Part shown: positions 12,511 to 17,697 of the stretch, piece by piece
Position numbering within the stretch: the first letter of the stretch is position 1
Layout: each line of letters starts with the position of its first letter
Assembly: GCA_028824555.1 (NCBI GenBank)
Contig: JAPPDJ010000150.1
Span: forward strand, 1 to 52,129
Direction: 5' to 3'
Source: Gammaproteobacteria bacterium
GTDB taxonomy: Bacteria > Pseudomonadota > Gammaproteobacteria > Pseudomonadales > Azotimanducaceae
DNA: 52,129 bases
Position numbers and translations under genes: made by a program
Notes under the pieces: generated by a model
Seen by the model: only the letters and a program-made list of their open reading frames with translations
Database searches by the model: none
What the model was told of the DNA's origin: nothing

Positions 12511-13908
12511 TCAGCGAATCGTGATGAAGAGGCGGCTCTCGCCCCGCTGCACACGCAGTGCCAGCAAGCCGCCCTCTTCTGCGGTCACGGCGTCAAACTC
12601 CTCCACCGACCCCACCGCCCGGCGGTTCACCGACAGCACCACGTCGCCTTCCCGGAGCCCAGAACGCCAGGCGAGGGAGTTGCGGTCGATGCTGCCCACC
12701 TCCACGCCGCTGATTGTGCCGAACTGTTCATGGTCACCCGTGAGATTGCGGAATTCCACGCCCTCTAGCTTGGGCGAAGACGAGGCGCCGGCGATGGTCT
12801 GGCGCTCCGGTTCGCCGATGGTGGCCTTGATGCGGAGCTCTTCCTCGCCGTCGCGCAGAACGCCCAGCGTGACATCATCGCCGGCGCGCATGAGGCCCAC
12901 GCGATTGCGCAGTTCCGCCGATGTCGCAAGGTCGTCGCCGTCGAGCGAGGTGATGATGTCGCCTTCCTGGATGCCAGCCTCCTGCGCGGCGCTCTGTTCG
13001 ACGACCCGCGCTACCCAGGCGCCGGTCACGTCGTCCGCCAGATCGAGGGCCTCGCGCAGTTCCGGTGTCACGTCCTCGATCATCACGCCCAAGAGGCCGC
13101 GGCGCACCTCGCCGAATTCGATGAGCTGGTCCACCACGCCGCGAACGATGTGCACAGGCACCGCGAAGCCGATGCCAACGTTGAACCCATCCCCGGCTCC
13201 GCCCCCGGAAGGCGCGAATATGGCCGTGTTGATGCCGACGAGGCGTCCGTCGAGGTCCACCAGCGCGCCGCCGGAGTTGCCGGGGTTGATGGATGCATCG
13301 GTCTGGATGAAGTCCTCGTAGCCTTGCCGGATAAGCCCGGTGCGCCCGAGCGCGCTGACGATGCCGGCGGTGACGGTGTGCTCCAGCCGAAACGGGTTGC
13401 CGATGGCAATGACGAAATCTCCCACCTCGAGCGACTCGGCTTCGGCCAAAGGCAATTGGGTGAGCTCTTCCGCCTCGATGCTGAGCAGCGCCACGTCCGT
13501 GCCCGGATCGCTGCCGACGAGTTCCGCATCGAACGAGCGGCCGTCCTTCAGGCTCACCCGGATTCGATCGGAGTTGCGCACGAGATGCTGATTGGTGACC
13601 ACCAACCCTTCACCGGCATCGATGATGACGCCAGAGCCGACGTTTTGGGCTCGCCGCGTCATCTGCTGGGGTGCGTCTTGCGGAATGTTGAAAAAGCGCC
13701 GAAAGCGCGGGTCGTTGAACCAGGGGTTGCGCACTTCCCGCGAACTTTCGACGGAGATGTTGACCACCGCTGGTGCCACGTCGCGTAACACCGGCGCAAA
13801 CGTGAGCTTGCCGTCATGACCGAGCGCCGGTAGGGCCAGCAGCGTTGCGGCGAGTGCCCAAAGGGCGAGCGTTCGCCTGGGCACGAGCATTCTCTGAATA
13901 CCGTTCAT
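12511..13908 (-). CDS. DegQ/HtrA-type periplasmic serine protease
   Basis: A 465-residue trypsin-like protease and chaperone of the periplasm. A signal peptide occupies residues 1-30 (ALAATLLALPALG). The catalytic triad is His108 (TNQHLV), Asp138 (GTDVALL) and Ser212 (NPGNSGGAL). Two PDZ domains follow (about 265-360 and 375-460). The frame is open far upstream to 14991, but that part is antisense to the selenoprotein gene. The ATG at 13908 has a GGGAGA Shine-Dalgarno sequence at correct spacing and yields the signal peptide. It is divergent from the selenoprotein gene and has a plausible sigma70 promoter upstream. Length and domain order fit DegP, DegQ or MucD; I cannot decide which from sequence alone. 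Confidence 0.93.
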   Translation of the reverse strand: MNGIQRMLVPRRTLALWALAATLLALPALGHDGKLTFAPVLRDVAPAVVNISVESSREVRNPWFNDPRFRRFFNIPQDAPQQMTRRAQNVGSGVIIDAGEGLVVTNQHLVRNSDRIRVSLKDGRSFDAELVGSDPGTDVALLSIEAEELTQLPLAEAESLEVGDFVIAIGNPFRLEHTVTAGIVSALGRTGLIRQGYEDFIQTDASINPGNSGGALVDLDGRLVGINTAIFAPSGGGAGDGFNVGIGFAVPVHIVRGVVDQLIEFGEVRRGLLGVMIEDVTPELREALDLADDVTGAWVARVVEQSAAQEAGIQEGDIITSLDGDDLATSAELRNRVGLMRAGDDVTLGVLRDGEEELRIKATIGEPERQTIAGASSSPKLEGVEFRNLTGDHEQFGTISGVEVGSIDRNSLAWRSGLREGDVVLSVNRRAVGSVEEFDAVTAEEGGLLALRVQRGESRLFITIR

Positions 13909-13931
13909 GCATCTCCCTCTTGCGTGCGCGA

Positions 13932-13959
13932 ATTCTGACGCAACGGACTCTCTGTGCAA
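13932..13959 (-). promoter_or_regulatory. Candidate sigma70 promoter for the degQ-like gene
   Basis: On the minus strand TTGCAC (13959-13954) and CAGAAT (13937-13932) are separated by 16 nt, about 24 bp upstream of the chosen ATG. This is pattern recognition only; I saw no clear sigma-E motif in the divergent gap. Confidence 0.35.
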
Positions 13960-14085
13960 CGATGCACCACGACGTTGGAACGTCACGGCCACCGCGCACT
14001 CTCTTTGGCAGTCAAACGTGGGGGCCATTGCGCCCGATTTCAACCGAGCGGAGGTAGCGCGGGAAGGCTGGCCGTCAACGCTGCT

Positions 14086-14961
14086 ATGCTCGACGGCGTG
14101 AACCGCCAGCCTGTCCCCTACATGGAGCGTTCGCGCCTCTACTACGAGGCGCAGGGCTTCACCCGCGCCTACACCTGGGCGCAGTTTGACGACGCGCCGT
14201 TCTCTCCCATGCCCAAGCCCTTGGCGGAGTCGAAGCTGGTTCTGATCACGACGGCGGCGCTGTATGACCGGGAAGCATCGGACCCGCGCTACGTGGCCTC
14301 CGCACCGCTGGTGCCCCCACCCGAACGCCTCTATGCGAATGACCTCTCCTGGGACAAGGACGCGACCCACATGGAGGATCGCGGCAGCTACTTCCCGGTG
14401 GCTCCGCTCTTGGCCGCCTGCGAGGATGGTCGCGTTGGTGACTTGGCCGAGCGCTTCCACTGCGTCCCGACGGACTACAGCAAGCGCCGCACGCGCGAGG
14501 TGGATGCCCCGGAGATCCTCAAGCGCTGTCGCGAAGACGCCGCCGACGTCGCGTTGCTCGTGCCGGTCTGACCCGTGTGCCACCAGACCGTGAGTCTGGT
14601 CGCGCGGCATCTTGAAGCGAACGGCATCCCCACCGTGGTTCTCGGCTCCGCCCTCGACATCGTCGAACACTGCGGCGTCGCCCGCTTCGCCTTCGTCGAC
14701 TTTCCCCTCGGCAACCCCTGCGGCAAGCCGGGCGACGTGGCCATGCAGGCAAGCATCGTCGACTCCGCGCTGGCACTTTTCGACTCCGCCCAAGAGCCCC
14801 GAACCACCGTTCCCCTGCCGTGGCGATGGCACCACGACGAATGGCGCGAACGCTACATGCAGGTATCGCCGGAGAACCTCGCAGAACTCCGCCGCAAAGG
14901 CGACGAGCGCCGCGCCGAACGCCAAGCCTTGCGCGACGCTGGCCGGGTAAGGCAGGAGTAA
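14086..14961 (+). CDS. Selenoprotein related to glycine/betaine/sarcosine reductase component B (UGA = Sec)
   Basis: The frame runs from about 14086 to 14961 with one in-frame TGA at 14569-14571, read here as selenocysteine 162 of 291. The flanking residues are VPV-U-PVCHQT, a UxxC redox motif. The sequence after the TGA (SLVARHLEANGIPTVV, DIVEHCGV, DFPLGNPCGKP) continues the same family, whose other proteobacterial members, as I recall, carry Cys or Sec at this position. A SECIS-like hairpin starts 10 nt after the TGA. The start is uncertain: ATG 14086, GTG 14098 and ATG 14122 are possible and none has a good Shine-Dalgarno. The family is related to the substrate-handling component of glycine reductase, but the aerobic function is unknown. 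An LLM oxidoreductase and an amidohydrolase follow on the same strand. No sel genes or tRNA-Sec are in the window. Confidence 0.85.
14582..14600 (+). promoter_or_regulatory. SECIS-like hairpin immediately 3' of the in-frame TGA
   Basis: Arms ACCAGAC (14582-14588) and GTCTGGT (14594-14600) form a perfect 7-bp stem closing the pentaloop CGTGA. The loop begins 17 nt after the TGA, and its second base is G. Both match the bacterial SECIS rule as I recall it: an apical loop roughly 16-37 nt downstream with G in the first two loop positions. The hairpin lies in coding sequence and would bind SelB. Confidence 0.8.
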
Positions 14962-14962
14962 C

Positions 14963-14979
14963 GGCTCTGCGAAAGAGCC
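14963..14979 (+). terminator. Short hairpin after the selenoprotein gene
   Basis: GGCTCT and AGAGCC flank the loop GCGAA directly after the TAA. The stem is short and no T-run follows, so it is at best a weak attenuator or an mRNA-end stabiliser. Confidence 0.3.
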
Positions 14980-15006
14980 CTCGAGAGTCACTTAAGGCAT
15001 TTCCGG

Positions 15007-15064: not shown

Positions 15065-15985
15065 ATGAAGTTCGGCGTTCAGGTCAATTGCTATCGCACC
15101 ACTTGGGACGACATCAGTCGCTCCATCGAAACCATGGAGGCGGGGCGCTGGAACAGCCTTTGGTTCGCCGACCATTTCCTTCCGCCAGGGCGCCGGGAAG
15201 ACGAGCACCTCACCGCGTTCGAGGGCTACACCATCCTCGCCGTGGCCGCCGGCATGACCGAGAAGCTCGAACTTGGCCACCTCGTCCTCGGCAACACCTA
15301 CCGCAATCCCGCCCTCGTGGCGAAGATGGCCGCCACCCTCGACCAAGCCTCCAGGGGCCGCTTCGTCCTTGCCCTCGGCGCGGCCTGGTTCAAGCGCGAG
15401 CATGAGGCGTTCGGCTGGACGTTCCCCTCGATGAAGGAACGTCAGGATCGCTTTCAGGAAGCCTGCGAACTGATCCGCATGATGTTCACCGCCGACGGAC
15501 CGGTGGACTACAACGGCAAGTACTACCAGCTCGATCAGGCGCCCCTCTCCCCCGGCTGCTACCAGAAGCCGCACACGCCCATCATGGTGGGCGGCACCGG
15601 CGAGCGCCGCACCCTGCGTACCCTCGCCATGTTCGGCGACGTGTTCAACCTCGACGGCTGGGCCGGGCAGGGCATGTCGATGGAAATCTACCGCCACAAG
15701 ATGAACGTGCTCGACAAGCACTGCGCCGATGTGGGCAGGGATCCGGCCGAAATCAAGAAAACGCTTCTGATGCCGCTCCTCATCACTGAGGACAAGGAGC
15801 GGATCGAGCGGTTCGAAAAGGCTCTCGGCAAGGGCTCCATGGCGGGACCGAAGAACCAGGTGATCGACCGCATCGGCGAGTTCGAGCGCGAGGGCGTCGC
15901 CGAGATCATGTTCGGTGGCATCCGCACCGGCGACGTTGCGAGCTATCAGCGGGTGGAAGAGGAGATTGTGGCGGCGTTCGGCTAA
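15065..15985 (+). CDS. LLM-class (luciferase-like) flavin-dependent oxidoreductase
   Basis: A 306-residue bacterial-luciferase-fold TIM barrel of the type annotated as F420- or FMN-dependent monooxygenase. Visible family features are the N-terminal strand MKFGVQVNCY, SLWFADHFLPPG, LGHLVLGNTYRNPALVAKMAATLDQASRGR and the C-terminal GP..QVIDRIGEFEREGVAEIMFGG. AAGGGGAA lies upstream of the ATG at correct spacing. It is followed after 71 bp by an amidohydrolase gene and preceded by the selenoprotein gene, which suggests a shared pathway for an N-containing substrate (inference). Whether it uses F420 or FMN cannot be read from the sequence; Gammaproteobacteria more often use FMN. Confidence 0.9.
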   Translation: MKFGVQVNCYRTTWDDISRSIETMEAGRWNSLWFADHFLPPGRREDEHLTAFEGYTILAVAAGMTEKLELGHLVLGNTYRNPALVAKMAATLDQASRGRFVLALGAAWFKREHEAFGWTFPSMKERQDRFQEACELIRMMFTADGPVDYNGKYYQLDQAPLSPGCYQKPHTPIMVGGTGERRTLRTLAMFGDVFNLDGWAGQGMSMEIYRHKMNVLDKHCADVGRDPAEIKKTLLMPLLITEDKERIERFEKALGKGSMAGPKNQVIDRIGEFEREGVAEIMFGGIRTGDVASYQRVEEEIVAAFG

Positions 15986-16056: not shown

Positions 16057-17697
16057 ATGGCACATGACATCGTGATCCGAGGCGGCGAGATCGTGGACGG
16101 CACCGGCGCCGAGGCCACGCCCGGCGATGTTGCCATCGACGACGGTCGCATCTCCGCCGTTGGCAAGGTGGACGCCAAGGGCCGGCAGGAAATCGACGCC
16201 GCCGGCAACCTCGTGTCCCCAGGCTTCGTCGATCTGCACACCCACCTCGACGCCCAGATCGGCTGGGACCCGCAGATGACGCCGGTGAGCTGGCATGGCG
16301 TTACCACGGCGCTGCTCGGCAACTGCGGCGTCACCTTCGCGCCCTGCAAGCCGCAGGATGTCGAACTACTCGCGGCGATGATGGAAACCGTCGAGGACAT
16401 CCCCAAGAACGCCATCCTCACCGGCCTTCCTTGGGACTGGGAAGGCTACGGCGGCTATCTCGACGCCATCGAACGCCTGAATCCCGCCCTCAACGTGGCG
16501 GGCATGGTCGGCCACTGCGCGGTGCGCTTCTATGTCATGGGCGAGCGCGCGGTGGAGGAACAAGCGACCTCGGAAGAGCGCAAGATGATGGCGGACGTGG
16601 TGGCCGACTCCATCGACCGCGGTGCCGTGGGCTTCTCCACCAACCGCTACCCGCCGCACAAGCTGCCGGACGGACGCTCGATTCCAGGCACCTTTGCAGA
16701 CCCCGAAGAACTCGTGGAAATCGCCAAGGCGGTCGGCCCCCGCAACGGCCTCATGCAGGCCGTGGGCGCCAACTTCGACGTGCTGAAGGCGATGGCGAGC
16801 ACCAGCCGTGGCCGCATCCTGTTCAGCTACGGCACGGGCCCGCAGGAAGGTTCCGGCAACGAGCAGGCGAAACACCTTGCGCAGCTTGCCGAACACGGCG
16901 ACTTCACTGCCATTACCCAAGTGCGCGGGTCCGGCTTCATGTTCGGCCTGCAATCGAACCTGCCGGTACAGGGCGAGACTTGGGACGCGTTGCGGAAAAT
17001 GGACCTCGCGGGTCGCCTAGCGGCGATTCGCGATGAGGACACCGCCGCGAAGCTGGTCCGTGAAGGCAGGGCGCAGAAGACCCGCTTCCCCCTTGCACAG
17101 GTGTTCTACCTCGGCGACGGCGAGACGCCGGACTATGCCGCCGGCCCCGAAATGAGCGCCGAAGCGCTGGCATCCGCCGCCGGCGAGCATTGGGTGGAGA
17201 CGTTCCTGCGCCTGTCCCGCGAAACCGACGGCAAGGCCCTCTTCAACCTGCGCATGTTCAACCAAAGCCTGAAGGAACTCGGCGACCTCTTCCGCAGCGA
17301 CCATATCTTCCCAAGCCTGGGCGACGCCGGCGCGCACGTGTCGCAGATCATGGACGCCGGCTGGCCGAGCTTCGTGCTCTCGCACTGGATTCGGGACACC
17401 GGCCTCTACAGCATGGGCGAAGGCATCCGCCGCCTGACGTCCGGCCCCGCTCGTGTGCTGGGCCTCAAGGACCGCGGCACCCTGGCCCCGGGAATGCGCG
17501 CCGACATCAACGTCTTCGACCCGACCGAGGTGGCGGAACTGCAGCCGGAGCTCGTCCACGACTTCCCCGGCGGCGCCCCCCGCTACATCCAACGCTCGAA
17601 GGGCTACAAGACGACGCTCGTCAACGGCGCTGTAACGCTGGTGGATGGCGAGCACACAGGCGAACGGGCCGGCGAGGTGTTGCGCCACGCCGGCTGA
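16057..17697 (+). CDS. N-acyl-D-amino-acid deacylase-like amidohydrolase
   Basis: A 546-residue metal-dependent amidohydrolase of the D-aminoacylase/dihydroorotase superfamily. The HxH metal ligands are His61 and His63 (GFVDLHTHLD), and a conserved Cys region GNCGVTFAPC (Cys90, Cys97) fits the D-aminoacylase metal centre. SLGDAGAHV (about 424-432) carries the catalytic Asp region. The tail (GTLAPGMRADINVFDP, TLVNGAVTLVDGEHTGERAGEVLR) is the small beta domain typical of the family. Length and motifs match proteins annotated EC 3.5.1.81, but substrate prediction in this family is unreliable. No membrane or signal segment is seen. It is the last gene of the plus-strand group and is followed by a palindromic repeat. 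Confidence 0.88.
   Translation: MAHDIVIRGGEIVDGTGAEATPGDVAIDDGRISAVGKVDAKGRQEIDAAGNLVSPGFVDLHTHLDAQIGWDPQMTPVSWHGVTTALLGNCGVTFAPCKPQDVELLAAMMETVEDIPKNAILTGLPWDWEGYGGYLDAIERLNPALNVAGMVGHCAVRFYVMGERAVEEQATSEERKMMADVVADSIDRGAVGFSTNRYPPHKLPDGRSIPGTFADPEELVEIAKAVGPRNGLMQAVGANFDVLKAMASTSRGRILFSYGTGPQEGSGNEQAKHLAQLAEHGDFTAITQVRGSGFMFGLQSNLPVQGETWDALRKMDLAGRLAAIRDEDTAAKLVREGRAQKTRFPLAQVFYLGDGETPDYAAGPEMSAEALASAAGEHWVETFLRLSRETDGKALFNLRMFNQSLKELGDLFRSDHIFPSLGDAGAHVSQIMDAGWPSFVLSHWIRDTGLYSMGEGIRRLTSGPARVLGLKDRGTLAPGMRADINVFDPTEVAELQPELVHDFPGGAPRYIQRSKGYKTTLVNGAVTLVDGEHTGERAGEVLRHAG

Follow-up and report, generated by a model that had tools for sequence, protein, structure and literature searches.

A gene split by an in-frame TGA in a gammaproteobacterial genome almost certainly encodes a single PrdB-like selenoprotein

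The window analyzed here is a stretch of 52,129 nucleotides from the genome assembly of a gammaproteobacterium. On its plus strand one reading frame runs from an ATG at 14086 to a TAA at 14959-14961 (gene coordinates 14086..14961), and the TGA at 14569-14571 is its sole interruption. Reading this TGA as selenocysteine (Sec) results in a protein of 291 residues with the stretch U162-P-V-C-H-Q. The TGA provides the first position of the motif UPVC (residues 162-165), and the codons at 14572..14580 encode the rest of this UxxC redox motif, P163-V164-C165, with the partner Cys at 14578-14580. A mechanical list of open reading frames contains two pieces, 13954-14571 (with a GTG start at 13954) and 14575-14961. 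The second piece, also on the plus strand and starting with GTG, is the spurious frame to be expected from a gene caller that ignores Sec, as stated in the original prediction. This prediction had also described a frame that stays open to 14961 behind the TGA and a TGA located at the U of a UxxC motif; inspection of the sequence confirmed the former, and the latter agrees with the motif U/C-P-x-C of the homologues. The proposed start at 14086 could be retained only in part: the ATG at this position is possible, but the in-frame GTG at 14098 fits the N-termini of the relatives L027 and L028 better by eye, and the gene start is uncertain between these two codons.

Ten nucleotides after the TGA starts a hairpin resembling a bacterial SECIS element (ACCAGAC-CGTGA-GTCTGGT, 14582..14600, plus strand), which consists of a 7-bp stem (14582-14588 / 14594-14600) and the loop CGTGA (14589-14593) with G at the second loop position, exactly as predicted. 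The GU of the loop (14590-14591) forms the first two bases of the codon for V169. Downstream of the selenoprotein gene and on the same strand follow a luciferase-like (LLM class) oxidoreductase (15065..15985) and an Amidohydro_3 amidohydrolase (16057..17697). Pieces of an LLM oxidoreductase homologue are also located downstream in the close relative L025, and an Amidohydro_3 homologue is also found near a TGA-containing paralogue on contig C124 of the same genome. On the minus strand an ORF of 826 aa (12511-14991 of the window) apparently combines a serine protease, DegQ-like as judged by eye, with the complementary strand of the selenoprotein gene; the portion opposite this gene is in all likelihood a shadow ORF.

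To collect relatives, a contig scan yielded 14 loci, a search of the class matched 8 of 369 genomes and a search of the phylum with the 18-row profile A1 matched 16 of 398, the own genome being included in both counts. Alignment A1 was built without L023, L024, L045 and L046, and L031 was excluded from both A1 and A2 owing to its stop. The rows L047, L066 and L067 are repeats of genes of the own genome, and each of these genes was counted once. In the resulting 43 homologous rows column 162 is occupied by TGA in 16 rows from 12 genomes and by Cys (TGC or TGT) in 27; no row contains another residue, which supports the predicted selenoprotein. P163 and C165 are invariant and V164 is nearly so in the 18 rows of A1, and L or A is found at residue 164 in divergent paralogues. 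The Cys forms from the class and phylum genome searches contain no internal stop. Besides the window gene, the own genome (G000) encodes three PrdB-like paralogues, and all four genes contain one in-frame TGA each; these loci are L021, L022, L023 and L024 on contigs C147, C173, C124 and C27. L023 and L024 are divergent and carry U-P-[LA]-C-T-R in place of UPVCHQ. G265 contains one Cys copy and one TGA copy. In the Cys form at L031:4001-4852 a TAA interrupts the frame upstream of the motif, and a remnant resembling a SECIS is still present (GU loop, 6/7 pairs); the locus may represent a copy in decay or an error of assembly.

A Cys codon that was mutated or misread to TGA, either in a pseudogene or as a sequencing error, would be only one step away, and relatives do have TGC or TGT at this codon. 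The same TGA codon, however, occurs in all 16 TGA rows and 12 genomes, among them L030 from a MAG titled Acidimicrobiaceae and both copies in G505, whose genome is a single contig, and four TGA paralogues coexist in the genome of the window. This conservation of the TGA refutes a pseudogene or an error, to which we assign a very small probability. The downstream part of the gene is also under purifying selection. Between the window and L025, dN/dS was 0.063 upstream and 0.156 downstream of the TGA; the corresponding values for L026 were 0.116 and 0.090, and those for L028 were 0.138 and 0.101, with dS near 3. The distant L030 gave 0.485 and 0.439, and substitutions against L027 were saturated. 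Since dN/dS is low on both sides, selection maintains the same frame beyond the TGA as well.

Two separate genes, the first ending at the TGA and the second re-initiating at GTG 14575, are exactly what the mechanical ORF list gives. Nevertheless, a start at 14575 would split the UxxC motif, only 5 of the 16 TGA rows have GTG as the corresponding codon (GTC, GTT, CTC or GCC in the other 11), and the Cys relatives have one open frame across the site, except for L031 with its upstream TAA. We therefore consider this arrangement highly improbable.

The original prediction had treated frame continuity, motif position and hairpin as three independent signals. This does not hold for the hairpin, because it is located within the codons of CHQTVSLV and is thus not independent of the motif. 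Its folding energy was -20.5 kcal/mol over 52 nt (z = -1.92), and 10 of 200 shuffled sequences folded as well; seven pairs were also obtained in 1.2% of 20,000 synonymous-codon draws for the same peptide. Taken alone, the hairpin of the window is only moderately surprising, and the comparative evidence is the strong part. For this comparison we used the 16 TGA rows (A3, 14 distinct) with 500 shuffles and the 27 Cys rows (A4, 24 distinct). In A3, 92.9% of the stem cells are paired compared with 72.9% after shuffling, 20 cells are changed on both sides compared with 4.5, and the covariation score is 0.581 compared with 0.152; none of the 500 shuffles reached any of these three values. Sliding the partner register reduced pairing in A3 to 17-34%. 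Two further measures in A3 were not significant, namely the number of pairs with a double change (4 of 7 versus 2.7, reached by 100/500 shuffles) and the number of further pair types (10 versus 7.5, reached by 35/500). The Cys rows displayed no covariation beyond the shuffles (72.0% paired versus 70.5%, covariation 0.131 versus 0.119). Their pairing is still well above that of slid registers (14-41%), and part of the pairing must therefore come with the shared peptide or ancestry. The covariation among the TGA rows is a further point against a mutated or misread Cys codon.

The two forms also differ in the completeness of the stem and in the loop. All seven pairs are formed in 9 of 16 TGA rows and in none of 27 Cys rows; at least six pairs are present in 14/16 TGA rows and six pairs in 9/27 Cys rows, and 7/16 TGA rows have only five or six. 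GU is found in the loop of all 16 TGA rows and of 5 of the 27 Cys rows. As the loop GU opens codon 169, residue 169 is Val in 16/16 Sec rows and in only 5/27 Cys rows, and judged from these alignments the RNA signal in the loop seems to constrain a residue of the protein. Presumably the hairpin resembles the SECIS of E. coli fdhF in its position just after the UGA and in the GU of the apical loop. A search of Rfam with the hairpin of the window found no matching SECIS family.

The genome of the window (4.2 Mb, 182 contigs, 96% complete) contains the machinery for Sec incorporation, and all four components named in the original prediction were found. SelA (467.8 bits) and SelB (382.6 bits) adjoin on C99 and SelD (243.7 bits) is located on C88, all above their cut-offs and without an internal stop. 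A tRNA-Sec (67.1 bits) lies about 6 kb from SelA/SelB on C99 and was also called by ARAGORN as tRNA-Sec with anticodon TCA. With its cut-off of 47 the tRNA-Sec search does not discriminate sharply: 5 of the 14 control genomes exceed this value, while SelA was found in 2 of the 14, and only scores well above 47 were trusted. These results also bear on a genome-wide reassignment of TGA to a standard amino acid, which could explain four genes with an in-frame TGA. Each of the four genes, however, has one TGA only, always at column 162, TGA ends 7 of the 11 ORFs examined in the window, and the stop-free matches to SelA, SelB and SelD belong to a Sec machinery that is present. Such a reassignment is extremely improbable.

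From the 11 other genomes with TGA forms, ten were searched for tRNA-Sec and G505 for SelA only. Nine of them (G369, G370, G371, G374, G382, G091, G265, G314 and G361) gave tRNA-Sec scores of 59-76 bits, and G505 contains SelA. In G372, which carries the TGA row L028, no clear tRNA-Sec was detected (best score 41.8 bits), and SelA is represented by no more than a fragment at the end of a contig. Among 11 genomes with Cys forms only, a clear tRNA-Sec is present in six (75-82 bits), and the other five reach only 45-48 bits; of another 14 such genomes, 13 gave no SelA match, and G652 has the gene. According to this distribution the Cys form occurs with or without the Sec machinery and the Sec form together with it. 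In G265 the divergent TGA paralogue directly precedes SelA (identified by Pfam), a SelB homologous to that of the own genome and a tRNA-Sec (C42:10242-10332), and in G361 a related TGA paralogue lies at most 3 kb from a SelA homologue (L073:5325-10221 and L072:7701-12533).

Because the relatives carry either the same UGA with a matching hairpin or Cys, the split gene is almost certainly one selenium-containing enzyme, and the comparative data leave us highly confident that the window gene would encode one selenoprotein of about 290 aa. An AlphaFold2 model calculated with 14 sequences and Cys for Sec reached a pLDDT of 85.3 and a pTM of 0.88. It places residue 162 between strand 155-159 and helix 163-178, a position where a redox motif could be expected. 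A search of solved structures found no clear relative of the protein.

The distribution of Sec and Cys was analyzed on a tree of 42 rows, from which L046 (short) and L063 (same gene as L022) were left out and in which the long-branched rows L023, L045 and L030 are unsurely placed. Five changes between Sec and Cys are required, four of them forced by starred branches. None of 500 label shuffles was as low as five (mean 12.5), a result to which near-copies contribute. The Cys form L053, whose sister in the tree is the Sec form L057, has kept the GU loop with one broken pair, and SelA was not found in its genome, G581. L053 looks like a recent change from Sec to Cys with a decaying SECIS.

The original prediction had assigned the protein to the relatives of component B of glycine/betaine/sarcosine reductase. 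This kinship is detectable but weak: GrdF, GrdH, TIGR01918 and TIGR01917 match with 20-25 bits, all below their cut-offs (22.4 bits versus 65.45 for the GrdB-type TIGR01918). The matches to GrdB, GrdF and GrdH align about residues 97-237 with the end of the profiles, with E values of 7e-6 to 2e-4. In contrast to these proteins, the window protein is about 140 residues shorter and no GrdE family was found in its genome. The best curated match is instead PrdB (TIGR04483) with 72.7 bits and an E value of 2.9e-20 over residues 39-251, which is most of the protein. Both proteins have Sec in UxxC, and the window protein comprises 291 residues compared with a profile length of 238. We conclude from the profile match that the window protein is, as far as sequence can tell, a distant relative of PrdB, which is the Sec-containing subunit of D-proline reductase.

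This match and the use of UxxC as the motif printed for PrdB in the accessible parts of four publications (PMC1088965, PMC2398784, PMC9312934 and PMC13188914) would be in line with a true PrdB in the narrow sense. The score of 72.7 bits, however, stays far below the cut-off of 300, and PF09338 was not found in the own genome (96% complete) or in any of 21 relatives. We take PF09338 to be the family of the pyruvoyl partner, covering both GrdE and PrdA. As a positive control, the same search matched 7 of 192 genomes of another class, that of G381, with a best score of 557 bits; the named controls were silent. Based on the low score and the missing PrdA/GrdE family the protein is probably no proline reductase, and a true D-proline reductase subunit is unlikely; "proline reductase" would thus probably be the wrong name.

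The kind of protein is already known, since selenoproteins with UxxC have been filed as PrdB in marine metagenomes since 2005, as far as the consulted sections of these surveys go. The Sargasso Sea survey reports 42 Sec-containing PrdB proteins with UxxC next to a single Cys homologue (PMC1088965), and the Global Ocean Sampling survey 235 Sec and 110 Cys forms of PrdB, with the domain given as pfam07355 (PMC2398784). In the corresponding sections of two reviews PrdB is listed (2022, PMC9312934) or described (2026, PMC13188914) as a D-proline reductase subunit. The marine proteins share with the window protein the UxxC motif, the assignment to PrdB and the existence of Cys homologues (PMC1088965, PMC2398784). 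Unlike the Global Ocean Sampling group as described there, the window protein has no match in Pfam, and pfam07355 was not matched even at an E value of 10. By the published description, the window gene probably belongs to this marine group.

The gene surroundings were read at 38 loci, 16 with Sec and 22 with Cys. Using tblastn with the L079 protein, a class III CoA-transferase was found in 16 of the 38 (L079 itself among them), and PF02515 was confirmed by Pfam in six, L028, L033, L034, L037, L071 and L079. In 13 of the 38 loci the CoA-transferase adjoins the gene in the same orientation, at a distance of no more than 300 nt or with an overlap, upstream in L037 and downstream in L029, L032-L036, L074-L077, L079 and L081. 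Twelve of the 22 Cys loci but only one of the 16 Sec loci have this arrangement, and at the window locus no class III CoA-transferase lies beside the selenoprotein gene. The 13 loci are spread over at least three parts of the tree; as close kin inflate the count, we claim a link and not a rate. A protein with a rhodanese domain is located beside the Cys form in three relatives (L034:2193-3815, L029:89-1753 and L033:2173-3963 on the minus strand), identified by Pfam for L034 only and by blastp for L029 and L033. This neighbour hints at sulfur chemistry.

For the selenoprotein itself the following course of events can be envisaged, the details of the reaction being tentative and rather doubtful. 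SelB with Sec-tRNA(Sec) would read the UGA as Sec upon binding the hairpin with the GU loop. The product would be an alpha/beta reductase related to PrdB/GrdB, in which Sec162 might attack or reduce the substrate and Cys165 might resolve the selenenyl intermediate, presumably with electrons of the thioredoxin type. The reductase would work without a pyruvoyl partner PrdA/GrdE, and for this reason the substrate is probably not D-proline or glycine. From the gene neighbours of the relatives, the best present guess is a substrate linked to CoA-activated carboxylic acids.

Taken together, we lean slightly towards the view that the marine "PrdB" genes are at least partly no proline reductases. They may instead form a family of stand-alone selenoenzymes with no pyruvoyl partner, with a class III CoA-transferase as gene neighbour in several lineages and with repeated switching between Sec and Cys, in which loss of Sec would free the SECIS stem as well as the Val169 codon, the source of the loop GU. 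The analysis mends a gene that would be cut apart in annotation, and it yields a collection of Sec and Cys forms together with their genome context. As the partner of proline reductase was found neither in the own genome nor in 21 relatives, it suggests that PrdB, one of the abundant labels among marine selenoproteins, may conceal an enzyme that catalyses a different reaction. Through the switches between Sec and Cys, the cost and the benefit of selenium in a single active site become accessible to testing.
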